Below, one piece after another: positions 7,862 through 64,000 of a stretch of DNA of 64,000 nucleotides. Origin of the DNA: Bartonella elizabethae F9251 = ATCC 49927 (GTDB lineage: Bacteria > Pseudomonadota > Alphaproteobacteria > Rhizobiales > Rhizobiaceae); assembly GCF_000518165.1 (NCBI RefSeq), contig NZ_JADB01000001.1, positions 62,001 through 126,000 on the forward strand, written 5' to 3'. Position 1 is the first letter of the stretch, and every line of letters begins with the position of its first letter. The translations under genes were made by a program, and so were the position numbers. The notes below the pieces were generated by a model, which saw nothing but the letters and a program-made list of their open reading frames with translations, was not told the DNA's origin and searched no databases.

Positions 7862-8890
7862 TTATTTTCGTGCTTCGATAATTTTGAAACCATGAGCTTG
7901 TTCATGAATCAACACTGTGCGGAAAATATCTTTTAACAATGTTTCATAGGGTAAGTGGCGGTTTGCAACAAGTAGCAGACTGCCACCTGACTTCAAGCAT
8001 TTTGCAGCATTTATAATAAAATATTTTCCCAAGGAGATATCTGTCGTTTGTTGTGTGTGAAACGGTGGATTTGAAATGATTGTGTCATACAGATTTGAGA
8101 CAGGCTCATGCACAAGATCATGCCAATAAAAATGAATTGGAAAAGGGGCTTTTGTGAGGTTAAGGTGCTGTTTTGCTGCTTTCAAAGCGTTGTAATCTGC
8201 TTCATAAAGATCAAGAGTTGTCAGTTTTACATTGCTTTCAAGTGCAACGTGAGAAAGATAGCCCCAGCCAGCTCCAAAATCAGCTGTTTTTCCAGAAATA
8301 ACTTTGGGCATATAAGAAGCAAGCGCCGCAGATCCTAGATCAATACGACCATGTGAGAACATACCAGAAGTGGTTTGAAATTTATCAAAAGAAAGCGGTG
8401 GTGAGCGCAATTGTGCAATATTTTGTTTCTCTATTTTTGGAGGAACTTGCATCCAAAATACAAGACCATGATTTTTAGAGAGTTTATGGGTGATGGGAAC
8501 AATTTTTTTGACCCATTTCATCATTGAAGCAGCACCAGCCGTTTTATTCCCACTGATTACAATCCATCCACTTGGTTTAACGCATTCTAATAAATCAAGA
8601 AAACAATTTTGGTTAAAACCACGATATTTGCTTAGGTGCAAAAGCGCACCATCATAGATGCGAGTTTTATCAATTTGAGGAGAGCAGTGAAATTGAGTAT
8701 CGACAAATTTTAAAAAATCTGGTCGCCAAGGCGTGATAACTTTTAAATTTTTAGCCCATTCTGAAGAGGGGATTTCTGTTAAACCGAAACTTAGCCAGCA
8801 TTGGTTTGGATCTGGATAAGGGAGTGCATGATTTTCAAAAGGTAACAATGATAACACATGTGGCTCTTTCACAGAAAAATGCCATTCCAA
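7862..8890 (-). CDS. Class I SAM-dependent methyltransferase, RsmC-like (16S rRNA m2G1207 type)
   Basis: A protein of up to 342 residues with the two-domain plan of RsmC/RlmG enzymes: a degenerate N-terminal methyltransferase-like half and a catalytic C-terminal half. The SAM-binding loop is DFGAGWGYLS at 204-213 and the catalytic NPPF motif is at 274-277 in an IISNPPFHT context, which indicates N2-methylation of guanine in RNA. The assigned start at 8890 is a TTG that lies in the loop of the apparent pnp terminator; a GTG at 8872 is an alternative and would shorten the protein by six residues. It reads in the same direction as pnp and lies just downstream of it. Confidence 0.83.
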   Translation of the reverse strand: MEWHFSVKEPHVLSLLPFENHALPYPDPNQCWLSFGLTEIPSSEWAKNLKVITPWRPDFLKFVDTQFHCSPQIDKTRIYDGALLHLSKYRGFNQNCFLDLLECVKPSGWIVISGNKTAGAASMMKWVKKIVPITHKLSKNHGLVFWMQVPPKIEKQNIAQLRSPPLSFDKFQTTSGMFSHGRIDLGSAALASYMPKVISGKTADFGAGWGYLSHVALESNVKLTTLDLYEADYNALKAAKQHLNLTKAPFPIHFYWHDLVHEPVSNLYDTIISNPPFHTQQTTDISLGKYFIINAAKCLKSGGSLLLVANRHLPYETLLKDIFRTVLIHEQAHGFKIIEARK

Positions 8891-8906
8891 TGTTGGGATG
8901 GCATTT
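8875..8906 (-). terminator. Intrinsic terminator downstream of pnp
   Basis: Read on the minus strand, a 9-bp stem (AAATGCCAT with ATGGCATTT) closes a 12-base loop and runs into a T tract, 25 bases after the pnp stop. The structure covers the proposed TTG start of the next gene. Confidence 0.65.
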
Positions 8907-8930
8907 CATGATTACGATAAGAAGAAAAAC

Positions 8931-11126
8931 TTACTCTTCTTTTTTCTTCCGGCGGCGCTTATTTTCAGGTTGCTTTTTTTCATCCACGCATTTTTCTTCT
9001 TTCACCGATTGATCATCGGTCATTTCCTTTCCGGTTTCTTGATCAACGACCTTCATAGATAACCGAACTTTTCCACGCTCATCAAAACCCATGAGTTTAA
9101 CCCAAACCTTATCACCCTCCTTAACAATATCCGTTGTTTTGGTGACGCGTTCTGATGCAAGTTGAGAGATATGAACGAGCCCATCACGAGAACCAAAAAA
9201 GTTTATAAATGCACCAAAGTCTGCAGTTTTTACAACTGTTCCTTGGTAGATAGCACCAACTTCAGGCTCATCGACAATAGAATGGATCCAGCGTTTTGCT
9301 GCTTCAATGGTTTTAGCATCAGCAGAAGCAATTTTAATGGTCCCATCATCTTCAATATTAATTTTTGCTCCAGTTTGTTCCACAATTTCTCGAATAACTT
9401 TACCACCAGAGCCGATCACATCGCGAATTTTATCAACAGCAATATTCATCACTTCAATACGTGGCGAAAATTCGCTGAGTTCAGTCCGTGCACTGGTTAA
9501 AGCTTTGCCCATTTCATGAAGGATATGAATCCGACCGTCTTTAGCTTGTTCAAGTGCGATTTTCATAATCTCTTCGGTAATACCATCAATTTTGATATCC
9601 ATTTGCAAAGCAGTAATACCATTTTCTGTTCCTGCAACTTTAAAATCCATATCTCCAAGATGATCTTCATCCCCTAAGATATCAGACAGAACAGCAAAGC
9701 GTTCTCCTTCTTTAATCAATCCCATGGCAATACCTGCAACGGGGCGCGCGAGCGGAACACCAGCATCCATAAGAGCAAGCGATGTTCCACAAACCGTTGC
9801 CATAGAAGAAGATCCGTTAGATTCAGTAATTTCTGAGACAGCACGAATGGTATAAGGAAAAGATTCTTTCGTTGGCAACATGGGGTGAATTGCTCGCCAT
9901 GCTAATTTCCCATGTCCAATTTCACGACGACCAGGAGAACCAAGGCGTCCTGTTTCCCCTACTGAAAATGGGGGAAAATTGTAATGAAGAAGGAACGTTT
10001 CCTTGTACATCCCTGTTAAGGCATCAACATATTGTTCATCTTCACCAGTCCCCAATGTTGCAACGACAATCGCTTGTGTTTCTCCACGGGTAAAGAGCGC
10101 AGAACCATGTGTGCGGGGTAAAATACCCACTTCTGATTGGATAGGGCGCACGGTAGAAAGATCGCGTCCATCAATACGCCTTTCTGTATCAAGAATGTTT
10201 CCGCGAACAATTTTTGCTTGCAACTGTTTAAAGACGGTTGCAATTTGGTCAGCACTAAATTGACAGTCATCTTCTGTTTCTGGTATAAACTTATGAACGA
10301 CTTCAGTTTTTAAGGCATCAATTGCGGCATAACGTTCTTGCTTATCAGTAATTGTGTAGGCCTTTCGTATACCCTGTTCAGCCATTTCTTGCATTGCTTT
10401 TTCAAGGTCAGAAAGATCTTCAGGAACAAAATCACGCGGATCTTTTGCAGCTACCTCAGCAAGCTTGATAATAGCATCAATGACAGGTTGAAGACCTTTG
10501 TGACCGAACATCACAGCACCCAACATAATATCTTCTGGTAATTCTTGTGCTTCTGATTCGACCATCAAAACAGCACTTTCTGTTCCAGCAACCACAAGAT
10601 CAAGTTTTGATTCAGGCATTTCATCAATATGAGGATTGAGAACATATTGTCCATTACAATAGCCAACGCGGGCACCTGCTATAGGTCCCATGAAAGGAAC
10701 CCCTGACAGGGTCAAAGCTGCAGAGGCGGCAATCATCGCAAGAATATCGGGATTATTTTCAAGATCATGCTGTATAACGGAAACAATGACTTGTGTATCA
10801 TTTTTGTACCCCTCAACGAAGAGAGGACGAATTGGACGATCAATTAAGCGTGAAACCAAAGTTTCATTTTCACTTGGCCGACTTTCACGTTTTAAATAGC
10901 CCCCAGGTATTCGACCAACAGCATAGGATTTTTCTTGATAATTAACGGTGAGTGGAAAAAAGTCCTGGTCTGGTTTTGGGCTTTTTGCCGATACAACGGT
11001 TGCTAAGACAATCGTTTCACCATAGGTAGCAATCACGGCACCATCAGCTTGACGTGCTATTTTCCCTGTTTCAAGGGTGAGCGGACGCCCGGCCCATTCA
11101 ATTTCTATCTTGTGCGTTTTGAACAT
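8931..11126 (-). CDS. pnp: Polyribonucleotide nucleotidyltransferase (PNPase)
   Basis: A 731-residue phosphorolytic 3'-5' exoribonuclease that degrades mRNA and matures small RNAs, usually in the degradosome. Two RNase PH domains (about 10-230 and 320-540) flank a helical domain. A KH domain (about 555-615) contains the [12 protein letters not shown] loop, and an S1 domain occupies 623-692. The tail after it is charged and lysine/arginine-rich. The gene lies 251 bases downstream of rpsO, the near-universal arrangement. The spacer is long enough for a structured leader of the type used for PNPase autoregulation, but I could not confirm one. Confidence 0.97.
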
Positions 11127-54539: not shown

Positions 54540-55969
54540 AAAGTAAGAAAACAACATCAAAAAGTCTATATCTAAGAATTGAATAAAGAAGATATTGTTT
54601 ATCACTTTAAGACAGAGGGGAGTTATTTATTTGCGAAGGATATCATGATTATGCGCGGGCAAATGAATGGTATTGTTCGGAAAAGATAAGGGGAGGGAGG
54701 TTTTGGTGAAAGAACACACTGTAGAGTGGTGATCGCTCGTTATAAATTTCATTGAATTTATAATGTGTAGATTTTGGATCACTCTATAATGTCGCAAATT
54801 CCCTCATTTTCATTTGAAGTTTGGTTATATAAAGGCGTATAAATCTCCTTTATTTAAGTGTTTTTAGGATACGAGGTGGATCTCAAGAATAGGACTTGGT
54901 TCATATGCCCTTGAATTAAGTCAATTACATGAGTAGGAAACTAAGAAAAACCCATTTGGCAAGAATCTAGGCTGTTTGTATAAAGGATGTGATGAGAATT
55001 CTTCCTCAAATCAAGGAGAAGGCGTAGAGTGAAGTGTAAAAAAGCTTTATTTTAATATTAAATTTTTGATCTTTGCTGGCATGTTTCGACTAGAAATAAA
55101 ATATTTTTCATTTGTCTATGTTTAAAATATCAAATCTCTTTTTTGCTAAATTCATGATTTTTAAAACGAGGTTTTATTTGTAAACTTTAAGAAAGATTTC
55201 TTATTTTTTCAGTTTTAAGGAGAGTTTTTATATAAATTTCAATGTTTATGAATTGTTTTTCTCAGTTTAGTTTATAAAGAGTAAGAAATTGAATGCCGAC
55301 AAAGAAGACTGAAGCTTCGAAAAAGATTTTCTATAAGGTTGTGATAAAAAAGCCATTCTTTCAAAAACAACAAGTGCTTAAAGTAAAAACAAAGAGCAGG
55401 TAAATTAAATGTACTTTTATTGCAATCCATGAAGTATTCGAAACTTTGTTTATGTGTGATACACATCTTTTACAGTAAAAAAACTCTCAAAGAGCTATGC
55501 GCATTTGGTCTTGCAAATAATGAACTAAACACATTGTTTATATAAATTGATTTGTATGAATTTAAATGGTAAAGTTGCATTTGGCTTGTTCTCAAGATTG
55601 TATAGTTTTCTCGCTGTCCTTAATATTAAGTGCCTTCATAAGAAGCCATGTTTAGCTTTTTTTACGGTTTTATCCACACGTGCTCGTTTGTAACGTTGAG
55701 GTGGGTAATTTTAGTTACTTTAAATAAAATGATTTAAGATGAAAGCATTCAATATTACAGAGAAAAAGATAATTTTTTCATTATAATCAATAGGCTAATT
55801 TCCCATAGCTAATAAAAGATGTCCTACATGGGGGATGAAAGAGTTTTTTAATTCATAAAGAAGAAAAATATGGTGAGAGGAACTCATTTGTGCATGGTCA
55901 AGTTTTATTCTCATTGACTATAGCAAGCAATGAAGGGCACTTTGATTGAATTTTTGTTTTTTTTATGAG
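54540..55969. other. Long gene-poor spacer upstream of the hbp cluster
   Basis: About 1.4 kb lies here without a supported gene. The repeat copy B is at 54865-54995. A minus-strand frame at 55272-55466 looks like a chance frame. The region before 55970 leads into the first hbp promoter element. Confidence 0.5.
54865..54995. repeat. Degenerate dispersed repeat, copy B
   Basis: This is the partner of the segment at 49990-50125, in the same orientation. The shared blocks include ACATGAGTA, then GAAAC-AAG, CCCAT, and GGCAAGAATC followed by a conserved TTT-A-A pattern. It lies in a spacer with no gene. Confidence 0.45.
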
Positions 55970-55988
55970 TGTATCATTTTTGCTACAG
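55970..55988 (+). promoter_or_regulatory. H-box promoter element of hbp gene 1
   Basis: TGTATCATTTTTGCTACAG begins 86 bases before the start codon of the first hbp gene. The same 19-bp block precedes all four hbp genes at 73-86 bases. It corresponds in position and context to the H-box reported in Bartonella quintana hbp promoters, where the iron response regulator Irr acts. Confidence 0.82.
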
Positions 55989-56055
55989 ATATCTGAAGTT
56001 TGGGCTCTATATGACATGACGTGTTCAAATAAATATTCAGCTATGGAGAGAAAAT

Positions 56056-56889
56056 ATGAATATGAAATGGTTAATAACAGCTTCTGCTTTCGCTTTTGTT
56101 TCAGTTTCAGCGGCGCAAGCAGCAGATGTTATTGTTCCCCCGAGTCCAACACCTGTTGCTCCCGTTATTGTTGCTCCAACCTTTTCTTGGACAGGTTTTT
56201 ACGTTGGGGGGCAGATTGGTGGTTTTTCGGGTAAAACGAAGATGGATATTCTTGCTAACGGACAAAAGATTCCGGTAGATAAGGATTTTTTGCCTAAACT
56301 ATCTGGTTTTATGGGAGGTCTTTACGCAGGTTCCAATATTGATCTTGGCAATGGCCTTATTCTAGGTGTCGATACAGATATCATGTGGGCTGATAAAAGT
56401 GACACGAAGACAGGAAAAACATATGTCATTGCTCCAGGTCACATCGATTATATTAAAAAGATGTTAAAAGACGCTGCAATTAATATTGGTGAAAATGCAC
56501 TTAAAGCTGGTTCTAAAAGAACACACAGTTTCACTTTTAAAGAAAAGTGGGCTGGTGCAACACGTGTACGTATTGGTTTTGCTGCTGAACGCATTATGCC
56601 TTATGTTGCTGGCGGTATTGCTTATACACAGCTCCAAGATACTGCATCGATCTCAATAACGGACAAAGATTCAGACAAAGTCATAGCTTCTGGAACTCTG
56701 TCTGATGAAACAAAGACCCTTGTTGGTTACACCCTTGGGGCGGGTGTTGATTTAGCCATGACCAATAATATTATTGTTCGTGCGGAATATCGTTATTCTG
56801 ATTTTGGTAAAAAGAAATTCTCAAATGATAAATATGAAACTTCTTACAAAACCAATGATTTCCGTGTTGGTGTTGCTTACAAATTCTAA
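56056..56889 (+). CDS. Haemin-binding outer membrane protein (Hbp/Pap31 family), copy 1
   Basis: A 277-residue outer-membrane beta-barrel of the Omp25/Omp31-like family that in Bartonella binds haemin and, for Pap31, fibronectin. The signal peptide is about residues 1-22 (ending AAQAA). Family blocks are FSWTGFYVGGQIG, EKWAGATRVRIGFAAERIMPYVAGG, VRAEYRYSDFGKKKF and the terminal YKTNDFRVGVAYKF with the C-terminal Phe needed for outer-membrane assembly. Variable loops lie at about 60-80 and 110-160. GGAGAG precedes the ATG. The family letter cannot be assigned from sequence reading. Confidence 0.93.
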   Translation: MNMKWLITASAFAFVSVSAAQAADVIVPPSPTPVAPVIVAPTFSWTGFYVGGQIGGFSGKTKMDILANGQKIPVDKDFLPKLSGFMGGLYAGSNIDLGNGLILGVDTDIMWADKSDTKTGKTYVIAPGHIDYIKKMLKDAAINIGENALKAGSKRTHSFTFKEKWAGATRVRIGFAAERIMPYVAGGIAYTQLQDTASISITDKDSDKVIASGTLSDETKTLVGYTLGAGVDLAMTNNIIVRAEYRYSDFGKKKFSNDKYETSYKTNDFRVGVAYKF

Positions 56890-56914
56890 CAGATGGTAAA
56901 TTAAATAACAAAGA

Positions 56915-56945
56915 GGCTCTATCTCTGATAGAGCCCTATTATTTT
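56915..56945 (+). terminator. Terminator of hbp gene 1
   Basis: A perfect 9-bp stem (GGCTCTATC with GATAGAGCC) with a three-base loop is followed by a T-rich run, 26 bases after the stop codon. Confidence 0.88.
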
Positions 56946-57149
56946 CTGTTGCTATATTATCACACATTATATATTTTATAGTAGATGTGGAAAAGCATTA
57001 TTAAGATTTTATTAAAAAAATTTTATAAACAACAAACAAAAACCACATTTAAAATCAATAAGTTATTTGCATACGCAGTTTGTGGTTTCTCGTACAAAAC
57101 GAAATTATGAAGTAATTTTATCTTCGGCAAACTCTCCATTTCCTGTGAC

Positions 57150-57168
57150 TGTGTCATTTTTGCTACAG
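57150..57168 (+). promoter_or_regulatory. H-box promoter element of hbp gene 2
   Basis: TGTGTCATTTTTGCTACAG begins 75 bases before the second hbp start codon. It is identical to the element of copy 4 and differs at one base from that of copy 1. Confidence 0.85.
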
Positions 57169-57224
57169 CTTTTCTCCGTGTTATCTTGTAGCACTGTGTT
57201 CATAATAAATTAGGAGCAAAGTTT

Positions 57225-58067
57225 ATGAATATAAAATCTTTAGTAACAACTTCTGTTATCGCTATAGCTACAGCTTCTGCAGCACAAGCTGCTGATGTTA
57301 TTGTCCCTCGTGAAACAGCCCCAGCAGTGATTACAGCAGCCCCTGCCTATTCTTGGACAGGTTTTTATCTTGGTGCTCAGATTGGTGGCCGTTCAATGAA
57401 AACTGACAAAGGTTCTAGCACTTTAGGTTATCACGATCTTAAGCTTTCCGGTATGCTCGGCGGCCTATACACAGGTTACAATGTTGATCTCGGCAATGGT
57501 GTGATCTTCGGCTTGGATACAGATGTCTCTTTTATTGGTAAAAAAGACACAATTAACTCCCTTACAAAGTATGTTGGAGGTGTACTTAGTAAAGATCTTG
57601 ACACGATTAATCAACTCCTCGATGATGCTAAGATCGAAAGGAAAGATGGTCTAAAAGTTGCAAAGGGGGATGAATACGTCGAAAGTATTACTATGAAAGA
57701 AAAGTGGTCTGGTGCTACCCGCGTTCGCATTGGTTTTGCTGCTGATCGTATCATGCCTTATATCGCTGGTGGTGTTGCCTATACGCAGATGCAAGGCATC
57801 ACAGCGCTTGAAGTGAAAAAAGATAGATTTTTGCCTGCAGAGGACAATGGTGGTAAACTTGTTGCTTCTGGTAACGTATATGATGAAACAAAGACACTCG
57901 TTGGTTTCACCCTTGGTGCTGGTGTTGACTTTGCAATGACAGACAATGTTCTGTTACGTGCTGAATACCGTTACTCAGACTATGGTAAAAAGAAATACTT
58001 TAAAGACACTGCGGAACTTCAATACAAAACCAACGATTTCCGCGTAGGTGTTGCATACAAGTTCTAA
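57225..58067 (+). CDS. Haemin-binding outer membrane protein (Hbp/Pap31 family), copy 2
   Basis: A 280-residue outer-membrane barrel. The signal peptide MNIKSLVTTSVIAIATASAAQA resembles that of known Pap31. Conserved blocks are YSWTGFYLGAQIGG, EKWSGATRVRIGFAADRIMPYIAGG, RAEYRYSDYGKKKY and YKTNDFRVGVAYKF. The loop at about 95-150 is lysine/aspartate-rich and differs from its neighbours, while the C-terminal 60 codons are nearly identical at DNA level to copy 3, which suggests recent duplication or gene conversion. GGAG precedes the ATG. It has its own H-box and terminator, so it is probably transcribed singly. Confidence 0.93.
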   Translation: MNIKSLVTTSVIAIATASAAQAADVIVPRETAPAVITAAPAYSWTGFYLGAQIGGRSMKTDKGSSTLGYHDLKLSGMLGGLYTGYNVDLGNGVIFGLDTDVSFIGKKDTINSLTKYVGGVLSKDLDTINQLLDDAKIERKDGLKVAKGDEYVESITMKEKWSGATRVRIGFAADRIMPYIAGGVAYTQMQGITALEVKKDRFLPAEDNGGKLVASGNVYDETKTLVGFTLGAGVDFAMTDNVLLRAEYRYSDYGKKKYFKDTAELQYKTNDFRVGVAYKF

Positions 58068-58100
58068 TTTCGTAAATAACGTAATTAATACAAAAAATAT

Positions 58101-58128
58101 AAAGGCCTCGTTTAACGAGGCCTTTATC
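58101..58128 (+). terminator. Terminator of hbp gene 2
   Basis: A perfect 10-bp stem (AAAGGCCTCG with CGAGGCCTTT) closes a five-base loop and is followed by a T-rich run, 34 bases after the stop. Confidence 0.92.
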
Positions 58129-58336
58129 TTATTATATTGTAAAAACTCTAGCATTAAGAGCGATAGGTGCATATAAAACTTCCCACATGAGGTGTTTATG
58201 TGAGATGAACATTCTTGAGTAGAGCTTGCCTCTAGAGTCACCTCGACATAGGAGACATCTTCACATGAATCACAGGAATATTTTTAGACCGGATTAGTCT
58301 ACACTGTCTTTAAAGCAGAATATGAATCACTGAAAC

Positions 58337-58520
58337 GATGACGATAGTTTGTTACAACATTGTAGGTGGTGGCATTAACTTCGCAATGACAGACAATGTT
58401 TTGCTGCATACACAAACGGTCACTCAGATTTTGGTAAGAAGCAATTTGCAAAGGATTATCGAAGACTAGGCTACAAAATCAATGACTTCCGTGTTAGAGC
58501 TCTTACAAGTTCTAATTTCG
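58337..58520 (+). pseudogene. Decayed 3' end of an additional hbp gene
   Basis: This stretch aligns base by base with the last 55 or so codons of hbp copies 2 and 3: a GGTGGTGGC block, CGCAATGACAGACAATGTT, the GATTTTGGTAAGAAGCAATT block and a tail ending ACAAGTTCTAATTTCGT. Frameshifting indels and lost codons prevent translation. There is no start or promoter before it, and similarity continues a little past the stop into the downstream flank of copy 2, so it is the relic of a duplicated hbp unit. Confidence 0.88.
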
Positions 58521-58623
58521 TCAAAAGGGCAATTATGAATACAAAGTATTAATAAAAAATTAAATTTTCAAGAAGTTTTTATCTTTTATAAAACCGCTGT
58601 TTTCTGGGCTTTTTATTTGTAAT

Positions 58624-58642
58624 TGTGATATTTTTACTACAG
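58624..58642 (+). promoter_or_regulatory. H-box promoter element of hbp gene 3
   Basis: TGTGATATTTTTACTACAG begins 73 bases before the third hbp start codon. It differs from the consensus at three positions, two in the left half (TC to AT) and one in GCTACAG (G to A), so binding may be weaker. Confidence 0.8.
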
Positions 58643-58696
58643 ATTTTTGCTCTGTAACCTTGTAAAATCATTTATAGTGAATTTAGGAGCAAAATT

Positions 58697-59581
58697 ATGA
58701 ATATAAAATTTTTAATGGCAACTTCTGTTGTCACGTTGGTTTCAGTTTCTGCAGCAAATGCAGCTGATGTTATAGTTCCTCATGAAGTTGCACCAGCAGT
58801 GGTTACAGCCCCATCATTCTCTTGGACAGGTTTTTATCTGGGTGGTCAAATCGGCAATTTTTCGAGTAAAACCAAAGTAACTATTCCAGGGGAAGACAAA
58901 GAGCTTTTCAAGAAAGATAACACACCAAGCCCTTCTGGTTTCATGGGGGGTATTTATGCAGGATCTAACGTAGACCTTGGAAGTGGCCTTATTCTTGGTG
59001 TTGAAACCGATGCTGTTTGGGCAGACCGTGAAGAATCAAAAACAGCTCGTGAATCGACTCTTACTAAAAAAGATGCAACATTTTTTAATGATGCCCTTAA
59101 AAAAGCTAAGGTTGAACTAACAGGACAGCAAAAATTTATAGAGGATGACCAAGTAACGGAAACGCACAGTTACAAAGAAAAATGGTCTGGAGCTACCCGC
59201 GTTCGTATCGGTTTTGCTGCTGTTGACCGCATTATGCCTTATGTTGCTGGTGGTATTGCCTATGCGCAAGTGCAGGGTATTCAATCCGTTGCTGGAAAAG
59301 GAGAGAGAGCTAAAGTTGAGCAGAAAGCTGATGGGGGTGAAGAGTTACCAGAAGGAAATAAGCAAACTATAGATTTGACGGGTGGTACTTGGGCTGATGA
59401 CACGAAGACAATGGTTGGTTTCACTATTGGTGGTGGCGTTGACTTTGCAATGACAGACAATGTTCTGTTGCGTGCTGAATACCGTTACTCCGATTTTGGT
59501 AAAAAGAAATTCGCAAACGATACCCGTGAGTTCAATTACAAAACCAATGATTTCCGTGTTGGTGTTGCATACAAGTTCTAA
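58697..59581 (+). CDS. Haemin-binding outer membrane protein (Hbp/Pap31 family), copy 3
   Basis: A 294-residue outer-membrane barrel. The signal peptide is about 1-22 (ending AANAA). Blocks FSWTGFYLGGQIGNFSSKTK, EKWSGATRVRIGF, VAGGIAYAQVQ, RAEYRYSDFGKKKF and YKTNDFRVGVAYKF are present. Two loops are longer than in copies 1 and 2: about 110-155, and a Lys/Glu/Gly-rich loop at about 205-235. A single Val is inserted in the usual AADRIMPY block (AAVDRIMPY), a clean three-base insertion. GGAG precedes the ATG. It is probably monocistronic. Confidence 0.93.
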   Translation: MNIKFLMATSVVTLVSVSAANAADVIVPHEVAPAVVTAPSFSWTGFYLGGQIGNFSSKTKVTIPGEDKELFKKDNTPSPSGFMGGIYAGSNVDLGSGLILGVETDAVWADREESKTARESTLTKKDATFFNDALKKAKVELTGQQKFIEDDQVTETHSYKEKWSGATRVRIGFAAVDRIMPYVAGGIAYAQVQGIQSVAGKGERAKVEQKADGGEELPEGNKQTIDLTGGTWADDTKTMVGFTIGGGVDFAMTDNVLLRAEYRYSDFGKKKFANDTREFNYKTNDFRVGVAYKF

Positions 59582-59621
59582 TTTCATAAAACTGAAATTA
59601 GAAACATAAAATAAACTTCTT

Positions 59622-59656
59622 AGAGGCTCTGTCGAAGACAGAGCCTCTACTTTTTT
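59622..59656 (+). terminator. Terminator of hbp gene 3
   Basis: A perfect 12-bp stem (AGAGGCTCTGTC with GACAGAGCCTCT) closes a GAA loop and is followed by ACTTTTTTC. It resembles the copy 1 terminator in sequence. Confidence 0.93.
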
Positions 59657-59862
59657 CTATTACTATATTATCACACATCCTATATTTTATTTGCGGATGT
59701 AAAAAGATATTCTTCAGATTTTCTTAAAAACTTTCTCATAAACGATAGATAATAATTACACTGTAAGTTCAACATTTTATCGGTATTTATAACCTGTAAT
59801 TTCTTATACGAAGTGAAAGTATGCAGCGATTTTATTTTGGATTATTCTCCATTTTTGATGAT

Positions 59863-59881
59863 TGTATTATTTTTACGACAG
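59863..59881 (+). promoter_or_regulatory. Orphan H-box element without an hbp gene
   Basis: TGTATTATTTTTACGACAG matches the hbp promoter element at 15 to 16 of 19 positions. The 200 bases before it align with the spacer between hbp copies 1 and 2, and the 60 bases after it resemble an hbp leader, but no hbp start or coding sequence follows. It appears to be the promoter of a lost hbp gene. Confidence 0.72.
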
Positions 59882-60429
59882 CGTCTCTTCGTTTAAACTT
59901 ATAGTATTGCGCTCATAAATAATTGCCTAATTAAAAAATCCATTAAGATCTTTCAGAAAGTTTCTAACTATTGCTTGTGTTTCTTTACGATGCTCAATAC
60001 CAACCAATAATATATTTCTTATCAATTGCTTCGTATGGAACATTGCCTATTGTACATCAGAATGAGTTCTCTCTATTTTTGGGTACATTTAGAGAGGTTA
60101 TACTATCAAGTTCAGGTTTAGATCTTAATGATCTTACCCCATTTTTCGATAGAGACGACAGGGATCATGCTACCGCTTTGTGGGGGAGAGCTTGTAGATT
60201 TCTTTAGTTATAGGATTAAAGTCGTACGTATTGGCAATAAAAAGAAAAATAGCAAATCTCTTCAAGAGAGATTTTCAGCATTTTTATTACCAATACAAGT
60301 TTTCATCATAATTTTTTGAAGTTCGTTATAAGAAAAAACATATTCTTTGCTATAGTAGCTAATTATGAATTTATCATTATTGTTTCTTTATTTCACGTGC
60401 AATTTCCCTATGGCGTAAATCACGCTTTT
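59882..60429. other. Scarred intergenic DNA after the orphan promoter
   Basis: About 550 bases lie here where a fifth hbp gene would be expected. Short frames exist on both strands (for example 59971-60207 plus), but none resembles a family I know, and the strand of any ancestral gene is unclear. Confidence 0.45.
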
Positions 60430-60858
60430 ATTCTCAAAGAATTGTTTTTGCTGTGAGAAAGAGGGGGGGGGGGACATCTTCAGGGATGCTCGTGTTTCCG
60501 GAAATATAGGTTAACCCACAAATCTCGGTATTTCTAAAAATCTTAACTTTGCCATAAATTTGACCACAGATTTTGGAATAAAGATGTATTTTTACATTAT
60601 CATAAACACTAGCATAATCATACACCCAGCAATCGCCATCATGGGATAGTTTTTTCCTTTTTAATATAACCACCTAGATAGTCATCCTTGATATCATCAA
60701 AATCCCTTAAGGTATGAAAGTGGTGTAAAGTAATGCCATCAAAAGTAAGGTTTTCATTCGTAAATTCGTATTTTTTTGCAGGCTCTTGTTTATTAACAGA
60801 CACAGTTTTATTTTCAATGTTAGAGGAAATTGTAGTGTTTTTTTGATATAGTTGTCAT
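60430..60858 (-). pseudogene. Frameshifted phage-type hexapeptide-repeat protein gene
   Basis: On the minus strand three frames together give one protein. An ATG at 60858 starts the first; after a 7-A tract the second frame reads KKYEFTNENLTFDGITLH and then DDYLGGYIKKEK. A further A tract before 60655 shifts into LSHDGDCWVYDYASVYDNVKI, GQIYGKVKIF and YISGNTSI. This is the layout of a widespread phage-associated family in which a KYEF-TFDGITLHRI-LGGYIEKE-NLSHDGNCWVY region leads into left-handed beta-helix hexapeptide repeats. Both breaks are at A homopolymers. The 3' end contains an 11-bp C tract. Function unknown. Confidence 0.8.
60463..60473. repeat. 11-bp homopolymeric G (plus)/C (minus) tract
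   Basis: Eleven consecutive G bases lie on the plus strand in an otherwise AT-rich region. On the minus strand the tract encodes the Val-Pro-Pro-Pro part of the last frame of the hexapeptide-repeat pseudogene. Such tracts slip readily during replication. Confidence 0.95.
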
Positions 60859-61118
60859 AGTTCAATTCTTATCGTTATTTAAATTTTCTATTAACCTTCT
60901 CTAATGGGACTCGGTGCTATAAAATTCGGCATACAGTCCGTCACTATGCTTTTTTATTGTCAATTATTTATGGGCTTTTTTGATATTTTTTCTAATTTTT
61001 GCTTTTTATAAGATTAGAAATGTTCGTTATTCTCGATTCCTTGACGCTTCAAGGTATTACAACGCCTTTTGAAGGAAAACAGCGAGAACTTTGGGGAAGT
61101 GAATACGGTTTCAAATTT

Positions 61119-61870
61119 ATGATATTATTGTTGCTGAGGTTTACTATCATATCAAAAAGCGTTCTATAGTATCGGTGACAGATCCTTATGTTGAAAGATG
61201 TATAGGTCTTGTCGATATCCAGCTTTTAATCAAGCAGTTAACTAAAGTCTACTTAGATAAAGGCTTATGTCACAGTTCGTATATCCCAGACTAGGATATA
61301 AAAAGAACCAATAATTACCTTCTTGGCAATAAGGTTGGAGGGGGTCCGTCAATATAGTGTCGCCATAGTGGCACCAATTTGGGGATTTTGCATTCTCGGT
61401 AGGATATTAGGGGAAACCTAAACTTTTGATGTCATTTATTTGCAAGGATTTCCTCTTTTTCATTCAGTTAAAAACATGCTCTAGAAGCAGGTGATGCGAA
61501 GTCTTAATTTGCCAAATTTACTGGTACGATCAGTGTCATGACATCTTTTCAGGTGAGCGGGTGGAATTTTATATTAAGCACTCTTTTAAGCGGCAATATT
61601 CAGCGCATAATTTATTGGCTGCAGAGCAGATATCTTTGGGGGGCTCCAATGTTCGTGATACGCGTGAGAGTTTGATTTTTGGCAATAACAGTTTTTATCC
61701 GTAATGATTTGATACTGAGAACCGTTCCGTGGTGCAACAATGGGATTCTTAAAAAGACTTTTGGAGAACGTCGCCCCTTTGTTAGTTTGGACTATGGTCT
61801 TGTTTTTGCACAACCTTTGTACGGTTTTACAAGCCGGTATCATCGTTATATTTGCCAGCCCCCAATGTTG
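61119..61870 (+). pseudogene. Decayed FhaC/ShlB/HecB-type two-partner secretion transporter
   Basis: Pieces of one TpsB outer-membrane transporter remain in order. Positions 61119-61320 give the POTRA region (SVTDPYVERCIGLVDIQLL, then QLTKVYLDKGL and SSYIPD), broken by an in-frame TAG at 61292 where the family has Gln (PDQD). Positions 61531-61711 give the late barrel segment (HDIFSGERVEFYIKHSFKRQ, then SAHNLLAAEQISLGG and NVRDTRESL); the frame then shifts by one base near 61703 and continues as RNDLILRTVPW, then RRPFVSLDYGLVFAQPLYGF. The middle of the barrel is missing. FhaC-type proteins export filamentous haemagglutinins; no fhaB is seen in the window. Confidence 0.85.
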
Positions 61871-62280
61871 CTAGCCCTTGCATTAAGACGGTTCATAAGA
61901 GCCGTTTTAGTTTTTTCTTATACAGTTTTACCTACACGCCAGCTGCGCTTTTGACGTGCAAGTAAATGGTTTTATTGATTTAAGATAAACAGATTTGAAA
62001 TGAGAGAATCTTACGATATTCGAGACTCTCATTCAACATGTGAAACAGTAAATTATCATTATAAATCAACGCATTGTTATGAATGAACAGTTTGCCTATT
62101 GGATAGCAGGTGTTAAGCTTGCAGAGGGAATGGTTTCTTTTGATGCCAGTTATTCCAGTATTTTCTATAGCACCGTCAAGCATAAAAAGTCAGACAGGTT
62201 TTTTGCATTTTTGTTTTTCGTAATTTAAGATACAAATAAAATATCAAAAATAGGCCATGTTAGTAAATAGATGAAACTTT
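61871..62280. other. Spacer between the transporter remnant and the hbp remnant
   Basis: About 400 bases lie here with stop codons in all frames at short intervals. Short frames on both strands have no recognised similarity. It could contain further decayed coding sequence. Confidence 0.4.
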
Positions 62281-62415
62281 GATGATATTTGGATAAAAAA
62301 GTCAGTGACTGTTTTACTATTTTAGCTGACATTGATTTCCTAATGGTAAGCAAAATTCTATTGTGTACAGAATATTGTTACTGAGATTTCGGTAAAAGAA
62401 ATTTACAAAAAAAAT
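62281..62415 (+). pseudogene. Second decayed hbp 3' fragment
   Basis: From about 62331 the sequence aligns with the third-from-last block of hbp copy 1: ATTGATTT, then ATGG, then ATTCTATTGTGTACAGAATA and TTGTTAC, then GATTTCGGTAAAAGAAATTT. That corresponds to the VRAEYRYSDFGKKKF region. The frame is lost and the last strand (the YKTNDFRVGVAYKF block) is missing. It lies just upstream of the promoter of hbp copy 4 and may be the 3' end of the gene whose promoter is the orphan at 59863. Confidence 0.68.
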
Positions 62416-62567
62416 ATAATCATTAACAGCTATGTGAAAATTTAGGGAAAATGAATCCAACTTTAAGACACATAATTTTAGTATGGCTTAGTTGATAAAT
62501 TTTCATTGGATGAAAAATTAAATAATTAAGAAGCCTTATTTTCATAATTTCTTTATTTTTTTGTGAG

Positions 62568-62586
62568 TGTGTCATTTTTGCTACAG
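62568..62586 (+). promoter_or_regulatory. H-box promoter element of hbp gene 4
   Basis: TGTGTCATTTTTGCTACAG begins 75 bases before the fourth hbp start codon, the same sequence and distance as for copy 2. Confidence 0.85.
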
Positions 62587-62642
62587 ATCTTTCAAAAAAG
62601 ATGCTCTATATACATTTCATTTTGGATATTTGGAGAGATTTT

Positions 62643-64000
62643 ATGAATACAAAACGTTTAATAACAGCGTCTATTTTTTCTTTAATTTCAGCGTCCACAG
62701 CGCTAGCTGCTGATGTACTGATTCCTCATCAGACAGCACCATCGACTCCTTCTTCTACTATTGTTGCCCCCACTTTTTCATGGACAGGGCTCTATTTAGG
62801 TGTCCAAGCTGGTGGCTTTTCGAGCAAGGCTGATATGGCTCTTGTCGGTCAAGAAAAGAGTTTTCCACTGGATAAAGAGTTCTCTCCTAAACTTTCAGGT
62901 TTTGCTGGTGGTTTTTATGGAGGGTCTAATATTGATCTCGGTGACAGCTTTATTTTTGGTGTCGATACGGATTTAACACTGTCTGGAAAAAAGCACACAA
63001 AGACTATTACTATAGGTTCATCTGATAACATTACAGTAGAAAATGCAGTGGGAAGATCCCGTAGATCAGCAGAAACGTCTCTTCCAAACTCACAAACAGG
63101 GACACCAACATCAACACAAACAGCCGCTTCAGGACAATCTGCACAAAAAGCACCTGCTGCATCAGATTCAGCAACAACAAAACCTGCGCTAGGAACACCT
63201 GCAGCCGGAGCAACTGGAGCGGGAACACCTGCAGCCGGAGCAACTGGAGCAGAAACACCTGCAGCCGGAGCAGCTGGAGCAGGAACAGCTGCAGCCAGAG
63301 CAGGAGAAGGTACATCTGCATCCGCAAAATCTGCATCTGCACAACCATCATCAGCAGCACCTGAAAAATCTGCACCCGCAAAACCTGCACCTGCAGCAGC
63401 AGTAGTAGCATCCGCTGCCGCAGCATCTGCAAAACCTACACCTGCAGCAGCAGCAGCATCCGCTGCCGCAGCATCCGCAAAACCTGCACCTGCAGCACCC
63501 GAAAAACTTGCAGCACCCGCATCAGCACCCGCACCCGCAGCAAAGTCTGCATCTGCACAACCATCAGCAGTAGAAAGAACAGTGCCAGCTGGGCCACTTG
63601 TACTGGCGAGGTCAGGATCATCTAACTCAGGGACAGGTGCTTCCTCTGGAGCAAGTGGAGCAAGTGGAGCGAAAAATGGGGGGTATCATAGTGCCCATGG
63701 TAGTGGATATTCTAATTCGCATGGTGCATCTCACCCAGGTGGGCATCATGGCTCTGGTGCTAACCCACACGGTTCAAACGGTACTAATCCACATGCTTCC
63801 CGTCCTCATGGAGCGCAAAGTCAACAAGCAGCGGATAAGGGTAATACCAGCGTATATGGTATAGAACAAATGAAAAAGATGGCTTCTGAACTTGGTCTTG
63901 AGGATGAAGTTGAAACTGTAAATCATACTTTCAAACAAAACTGGGGTGGTGCTACACGGGTACGTATCGGTTTTGCTGCTGATCGCTTTATGCCTTATCT
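62643..64000 (+). CDS. Hbp-family outer membrane protein with large Ala/Pro-rich and His/Gly-rich loop insertion (copy 4, partial)
   Basis: The frame is open from the ATG at 62643 (GGAGAG upstream) to the window end, so at least 452 residues are seen. A signal peptide (ending ALAADV) is followed by normal Hbp sequence to about residue 141 (FSWTGLYLGVQAGGFSSK, then KLSGFAGGFYGGSNIDLG). Residues 142-397 are a low-complexity insertion: Ala/Pro/Thr/Gly/Ser repeats, then a His/Gly-rich stretch with nine His in residues 349-389. Normal sequence resumes (TFKQNWGGATRVRIGFAADR, FMPYL). The insertion falls where copies 1-3 have their longest variable loop, so it is probably surface exposed. The gene continues beyond the window; about 90-100 more codons are expected. 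Confidence 0.9.
   Translation, partial: MNTKRLITASIFSLISASTALAADVLIPHQTAPSTPSSTIVAPTFSWTGLYLGVQAGGFSSKADMALVGQEKSFPLDKEFSPKLSGFAGGFYGGSNIDLGDSFIFGVDTDLTLSGKKHTKTITIGSSDNITVENAVGRSRRSAETSLPNSQTGTPTSTQTAASGQSAQKAPAASDSATTKPALGTPAAGATGAGTPAAGATGAETPAAGAAGAGTAAARAGEGTSASAKSASAQPSSAAPEKSAPAKPAPAAAVVASAAAASAKPTPAAAAASAAAASAKPAPAAPEKLAAPASAPAPAAKSASAQPSAVERTVPAGPLVLARSGSSNSGTGASSGASGASGAKNGGYHSAHGSGYSNSHGASHPGGHHGSGANPHGSNGTNPHASRPHGAQSQQAADKGNTSVYGIEQMKKMASELGLEDEVETVNHTFKQNWGGATRVRIGFAADRFMPY
63195..63300 (+). repeat. 30-bp tandem repeats inside hbp copy 4
   Basis: Three full 30-bp units (63195-63224, 63225-63254, 63255-63284) and a partial fourth encode TPAAGATGAG, TPAAGATGAE, TPAAGAAGAG and a degenerate TAAARAG. 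The unit is a multiple of three, so copy changes keep the frame. Confidence 0.9.
63381..63494 (+). repeat. 48/51-bp tandem repeats inside hbp copy 4
   Basis: Two units, 63381-63431 (51 bp, encoding KPAPAAAVVASAAAASA) and 63432-63479 (48 bp, encoding KPTPAAAAASAAAASA), are followed by the start of a third (KPAPA). They differ by one codon in an alanine run and two substitutions, which points to slippage or unequal exchange. Confidence 0.9.

Follow-up and report, generated by a model that had tools for sequence, protein, structure and literature searches.

Why does the fourth gene of an hbp cluster in Bartonella elizabethae F9251 carry a long, low-complexity insert that ends in a cluster of histidines, and what might such an insert do? 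The gene lies at the end of the 64,000-nucleotide stretch of DNA analysed here (the window), whose 3' edge cuts it. The frame stays open beyond that edge, and in the genome it is the open reading frame at 8102-9781 of locus L009, with an MNTKR start at 8144 (window position 62643). From this start the protein has 545 residues and reaches the usual Hbp C-terminus, ...TNDFRVGVAYKF, so normal Hbp sequence does resume after the insert, as the original prediction had it. That prediction was also right about a normal Hbp start followed by a long Ala/Pro/Ser/Gly insert with nine histidines in 41 residues, and about the size of copies 1-3, given as 277-294 residues and measured at 277, 280 and 294. 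The gene ileS is 3' of the fourth copy in the F9251 genome. Features of the locus are collected in Table 1.

Table 1. Features of the hbp cluster and of its fourth gene, in window coordinates except where a genome position is given.
Feature	Position	Strand	Residues and basis
hbpB coding sequence	62643..64000, on to G000:C1:126280	+	open reading frame; genome placement of the window
hbp copies 1-3, without insert, same cluster	56056-56889, 57225-58067, 58697-59581	+	
Likely signal peptide	62643..62708	+	residues 1-22, ...STALA then ADV; by eye
Barrel strands 1-3	62787..63011	+	residues ~49-123; transferred from L010 model
Loop 2 insert	63015..63851	+	residues 125-403; low confidence, no strand predicted
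Stalk: base with basic patch GRSRRSA, then Ala/Pro/Ser/Gly repeats	63015..63686	+	residues 125-348
LVLARS motif near stalk end	63597..63614	+	residues 319-324
Histidine-rich tip, nine His in 41 residues	63687..63809	+	residues 349-389
Conserved VYGIEQMKKMASEL segment	63852..63893	+	predicted helix, base of loop
Barrel strand 4	63915..63974	+	residues ~425-444; transferred from L010

Ala, Pro, Ser and Gly make up 67% of the 279-residue insert. The stalk in the window holds in-frame tandem repeats with periods of 6, 9, 12, 15, 30 and 48, all multiples of three, so that the insert is partly repeats. The tip histidines are residues 349, 352, 360, 364, 368, 369, 376, 384 and 389; among 20,000 shuffles of the whole protein, none reached nine histidines within 41 residues. 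A small correction to the original prediction is that copies 1-3 already have a loop at this place: counted from where the GVDTD-like motif ends up to the fourth residue ahead of GATRVR, it has 54-58 residues in them versus 321 in copy 4. Searches with Pfam and NCBIfam found no described domain within the insert, and an Rfam scan of window positions 55000-64000 returned 0 matches to structured RNAs. The idea that a second copy in the same genome donated the stalk or tip was rejected: DNA matches extend over only 19-27 bases (E > 0.5), and the sole match at the protein level is HbpB itself. The region between copy 3 and hbpB (window 61301-62077) has no open reading frame longer than 91 aa. It contains stretches of about 530 bp and about 245 bp that match many dispersed sites in other Bartonella genomes, the latter recurring in the F9251 genome at C1:211120-211373 and C18:426-670.

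The fourth hbp gene is HbpB, an ordinary long member of the Hbp/Pap31 family. Its product scores 35.1 bits against Pfam model PF13505 (cut-off 28.7) and 46.9 against PF02530 (cut-off 22), models of the OMP_b-brl/Porin_2 type, and conserves the N- and C-terminal Hbp sequence that marks the family. As HbpB it is recognized by the extra central part, by its grouping on the barrel alone and by its place beside ileS. With its first 148 residues as query, 42 of 71 Bartonella genomes reach 164 bits or more in their best match, and these carry HbpB; below them comes G006 at 150 bits, whose protein (L067) has no such loop. Among the 29 genomes without HbpB, hbp genes were examined in four (G006, G002, G046 and G015). 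One HbpB gene (L063, genome G035) has a run of N inside its stalk, which suggests that assembly is difficult in this repeat-rich region; leaving that gene out gives the gap-free set of 41 orthologues used below. In a quick tree built from barrel sequence, from which the F9251 paralogue L006 was omitted as it gave no usable row, the 41 HbpB proteins fall on one side of a branch and eight other Hbps on the opposite side (SH-aLRT 99). The gene 3' of hbpB is ileS in 24/24 of those loci whose flank is 330 nt or longer, and also in 14/14 longer loci whose genes are among the same 41.

Identical coding sequences put names to members of the set, which include B. tribocorum, B. queenslandensis, B. grahamii, B. 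gabonensis, B. massiliensis, B. koehlerae and B. taylorii records, among others. The HbpB of genome G032 has 445 residues, with a tip of 83 residues and eight histidines in the insert. A search of 199 genomes of the order gave, among the matches listed, only partial barrel matches outside Bartonella; these include long frames too, such as one of 670 aa in G212. With HbpB present in 42 of 71 Bartonella genomes, the idea that the insert is an invention unique to the F9251 genome is ruled out.

Published work on Hbps is cited here from excerpts. In these, HbpB of B. quintana is about 11 kDa larger than other Hbps, with a central part that they lack, and hbpB of B. henselae is 1,182 bp long versus 831-846 bp for the other three hbp genes (PMC3483173). 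The original prediction, which knew of no described Hbp with this design, is thus not supported on this point: the insert is common in the genus, and the extra central part of HbpB is already in print, so that one of the refuting conditions given with that prediction applies in part. The F9251 protein has the MNTKR start, C-terminus and extra central part in common with HbpB of these two species, and differs from them in a longer insert and an Ala/Pro-rich stalk. HbpA/Pap31, HbpC, HbpD and HbpE have the same barrel, gene cluster and conserved strands as HbpB, but their loop 2 is short and without a histidine-rich tip. The two-part build of the insert appears to be little described; in the open-licence literature, to the extent of the text available from it, we found no description of a genus-wide split into a conserved histidine tip and a turned-over stalk. 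A further paper on the family deals with point changes in Hbps, and its available text is not about the HbpB loop (PMC12673931).

Because the F9251 gene is cut by the window edge, a close orthologue, L010 (554 residues, 15-row alignment), was modelled with AlphaFold2. The model has eight strands; the turns that follow strands 2, 4 and 6 are short, while strands 3 and 4 are separated by the insert, which has short helices at both ends. Confidence is low overall (mean pLDDT 52.4, pTM 0.41), and nearly all of the insert is below a pLDDT of 50. Strands were transferred to F9251 HbpB by equal numbering up to the insert. Matches to the model among PDB structures include NspA, OmpA, Ail and OmpX, which are like HbpB in fold and low in sequence identity to it; their loops are of ordinary length. 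In eight-strand outer-membrane barrels it is the loops after strands 1, 3, 5 and 7 that face the outside, so loop 2 of HbpB should be outside the cell. The insert is accordingly predicted to be a disordered loop, probably extracellular by the usual barrel topology, in agreement with the extracellular loop that had been proposed. Escherichia coli cells expressing Hbps bind Congo red, from which a surface location was deduced (PMC3483173, in excerpt).

Across the 41 orthologues, protein length ranges from 356 to 658 residues and insert length from 83 to 389 (median 264). Histidines are confined almost entirely to the tip: 396 of the 402 in the inserts occur within the last 90 residues before a conserved YGIE-like (Tyr-Gly-Ile-Glu-like) segment, which amounts to 396 in 3678 tip-side residues versus 6 in 6430 residues of stalk upstream. 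At least five histidines are present in 40 of 41 inserts, the exception being L054 with two, and Cys and Trp are absent from all 41. Gly follows the tip histidine in 190 of 396 cases, while Pro (95), Ser (82) and Gly (70) are frequent before it, and 228 of 355 neighbouring histidine pairs are spaced by 2-5 residues. In 16 disjoint species pairs, tip histidines are retained at 220 of 282 aligned places (0.78), and all other tip residues together at 868 of 1338. Ser (178/286), Ala (144/218) and Asn (68/116) are retained less than His. Every pair was counted in both directions, so p values for tip retention are overstated, and because Gly (240/303, 0.79), Gln (62/80, 0.78) and Lys (32/35, 0.91) are kept as well as His or better, the retention signal is not specific to histidine. 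Together these counts are moderate evidence for retention of the tip as a unit. The histidine-rich part is a distinct element that persists when the stalk shrinks or changes, in keeping with the two-part insert on an Hbp barrel that was first proposed.

The anatomy of HbpB, the confinement of histidine to its tip, the persistence of that tip and the fast turnover of the stalk are shown by these data. HbpB is an eight-strand Hbp/Pap31 barrel in which loop 2, joining strands 3 and 4, is extended by a spacer, predicted to be disordered, whose last part before strand 4 is a histidine-rich patch of Gly/Asn/Pro character. On the reading that we favour, that patch would serve at the surface to capture haem, or else a divalent metal, and the stalk would be a hypervariable spacer tolerant of changes in length and sequence, altered by repeat slippage and recombination, with immune pressure perhaps behind the change. 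We hold this reading tentatively, with slightly less than even confidence; the adhesin and immune-decoy functions raised in the original prediction are likewise putative.

The stalk turns over fast. Its length up to the first tip histidine is 4 residues in L066, 19 in L065 (a B. taylorii record) and as much as 333 in L059; given stalks of 4 and 19 residues, the tip can exist almost without one. Median identity over 820 pairs of orthologues is 0.749 for the barrel, 0.419 for the tip and 0.286 for the stalk, and median G+C is 0.387, 0.505 and 0.493, respectively. In one species pair, L027 and L028, the barrels are 99.3% identical in protein. DNA identity between the two genes is 97.8% as far as about 57 nt into the stalk, and it is 91.6% again from about 33 nt before the stalk ends. 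Between those flanks blastn finds one 109-nt match only, at 78%, and the stalk cores are covered to 22-27% at the DNA level. The best stalk match of L027 is L031 (206 nt, 90%), although the L031 barrel is less close. The closest barrel to that of F9251 HbpB belongs to L029 (94.6 and 97.7% DNA identity in two parts), and no stalk core in common was detectable between these two genes. Among 36 stalk cores, one of them without any match, the nearest neighbour by barrel is the nearest neighbour by stalk core in 6 of 35. Stalk turnover of this sort fits repeat slippage together with recombination; immune selection is not demonstrated by turnover itself.

Two short motifs recur in the inserts. A basic R-x-R-R-S-like motif stands at the start of the stalk (window 63048-63068) in 34 of 41 orthologues and could be a protease site or merely a basic patch. 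A loose LxLARS motif, sometimes repeated, occurs in 35 of 41.

Turnover this extreme beside near-identical barrels, the stalk match between L027 and L031, and the rarity with which barrel and stalk neighbours agree suit a loop that is mainly an antigenically variable shield, exchanged or expanded to escape antibodies, in which the histidines would be secondary or structural. Excerpts of PMC3483213 add that, in B. henselae Houston-1, genes for hemin-binding proteins were among those on a high-SNP fragment that lies apart from the main variable zone. Low-complexity sequence, however, turns over fast without immune selection too, and a shield leaves unexplained why the tip keeps its histidines when the stalk has next to none. 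HbpB was, moreover, undetected in cultured cells by western blot and also in proteomics work as cited in the available part of PMC3483173. We consider a shield as the main role unlikely, though well worth keeping in mind.

For a capture patch, as favoured here, the excerpted data on ligands conflict. Recombinant HbpA-D of B. henselae, each with a C-terminal six-His tag, all bound haem on blots, while an earlier claim cited in the same paper has it that HbpB of B. quintana does not bind haem (PMC3483173). Since HbpA, HbpC and HbpD of B. henselae are of ordinary size and bind haem, the insert is not needed for haem binding. HbpB improved the use of haem through HemR in E. coli, perhaps owing to the level of HbpB, and knockdown of each Hbp led to higher sensitivity to peroxide (PMC3483173). 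Transcription of hbpB and hbpC in B. quintana is reported to be up when haem and oxygen are high and the temperature is low (PMC3483173, PMC3799009) and to rise under gut-like conditions (PMC3483173, PMC3799009, PMC10936683). The tip may hold haem, or else Zn, Cu or Ni, on the cell surface, as we infer with moderate confidence. It would be of greatest use to the bacterium inside the arthropod vector, in a gut rich in haem, the setting in which transcription of B. quintana hbpB reportedly rises.

The ligand of the tip could instead be Zn, Cu or Ni, with a role in storing metal or in resisting metal limitation or poisoning by the host. In favour of this, the spacing of 2-5 residues is common among its histidines, Cys is lacking, and the context is Gly/Asn/Ser. 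Metal-binding histidine-rich segments are similar in kind to the HbpB tip. Set against this, the published excerpts give Hbps a part in haem binding and have hbpB follow haem level, temperature and oxygen; we rate a metal tip of this kind as improbable.

The insert could also lack any function of its own and be a low-complexity expansion that the protein tolerates. In-frame tandem repeats and stalks of 4 to 333 residues are what such an expansion would produce, and an unrelated long loop exists elsewhere: genome G015, which lacks HbpB, has a second, apparently separate long-loop Hbp (L077, G015:C1:314572-316398) away from ileS. This protein of 609 residues has an Hbp barrel with a long loop 2, as HbpB does, but the loop of 364 residues is Ser/Lys/Glu-rich with only two histidines and the gene neighbourhood differs, so long loops arise without a histidine tip. 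In HbpB, by contrast, the tip persists in 40 of 41 species of a single clade while the stalk is lost or changed, and histidine is retained more than Ser, Ala or Asn; we judge an insert without function quite improbable. An assembly or frame artefact, for which the N run in the G035 stalk might speak, has practically no chance in view of 41 independent open frames, one per species and several on single-contig assemblies.

A more far-reaching form of the capture reading, which we regard as doubtful but not to be neglected, is a two-module surface device, in which a conserved, histidine-rich disordered haem sink would be kept away from the membrane by a stalk cassette swapped between Bartonella species and rebuilt by in-frame repeats. 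If true, binding would be kept while the exposed surface keeps changing, and HbpB would match the histidine-rich proteins that detoxify haem as a bacterial counterpart tethered to a barrel, at work in the gut of a blood-feeding vector. Plasmodium proteins of the HRP2 type, in which low-complexity histidine-rich sequence binds haem (PMC7725123, in excerpt), offer a likeness in mode of action only; the HbpB tip has far fewer histidines and sits on a barrel, and homology is not claimed.

Bartonella must acquire haem and yet, inside its vector's gut, survive toxic levels of it. Among several Hbps with unsettled separate roles, HbpB alone has the conserved histidine-rich tip, which provides this paralogue with a distinct function open to testing and may explain the conflicting reports on haem binding by this protein. 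The pairing of a near-identical barrel with a replaced stalk also recommends HbpB for work on how the cell surface varies across the genus.
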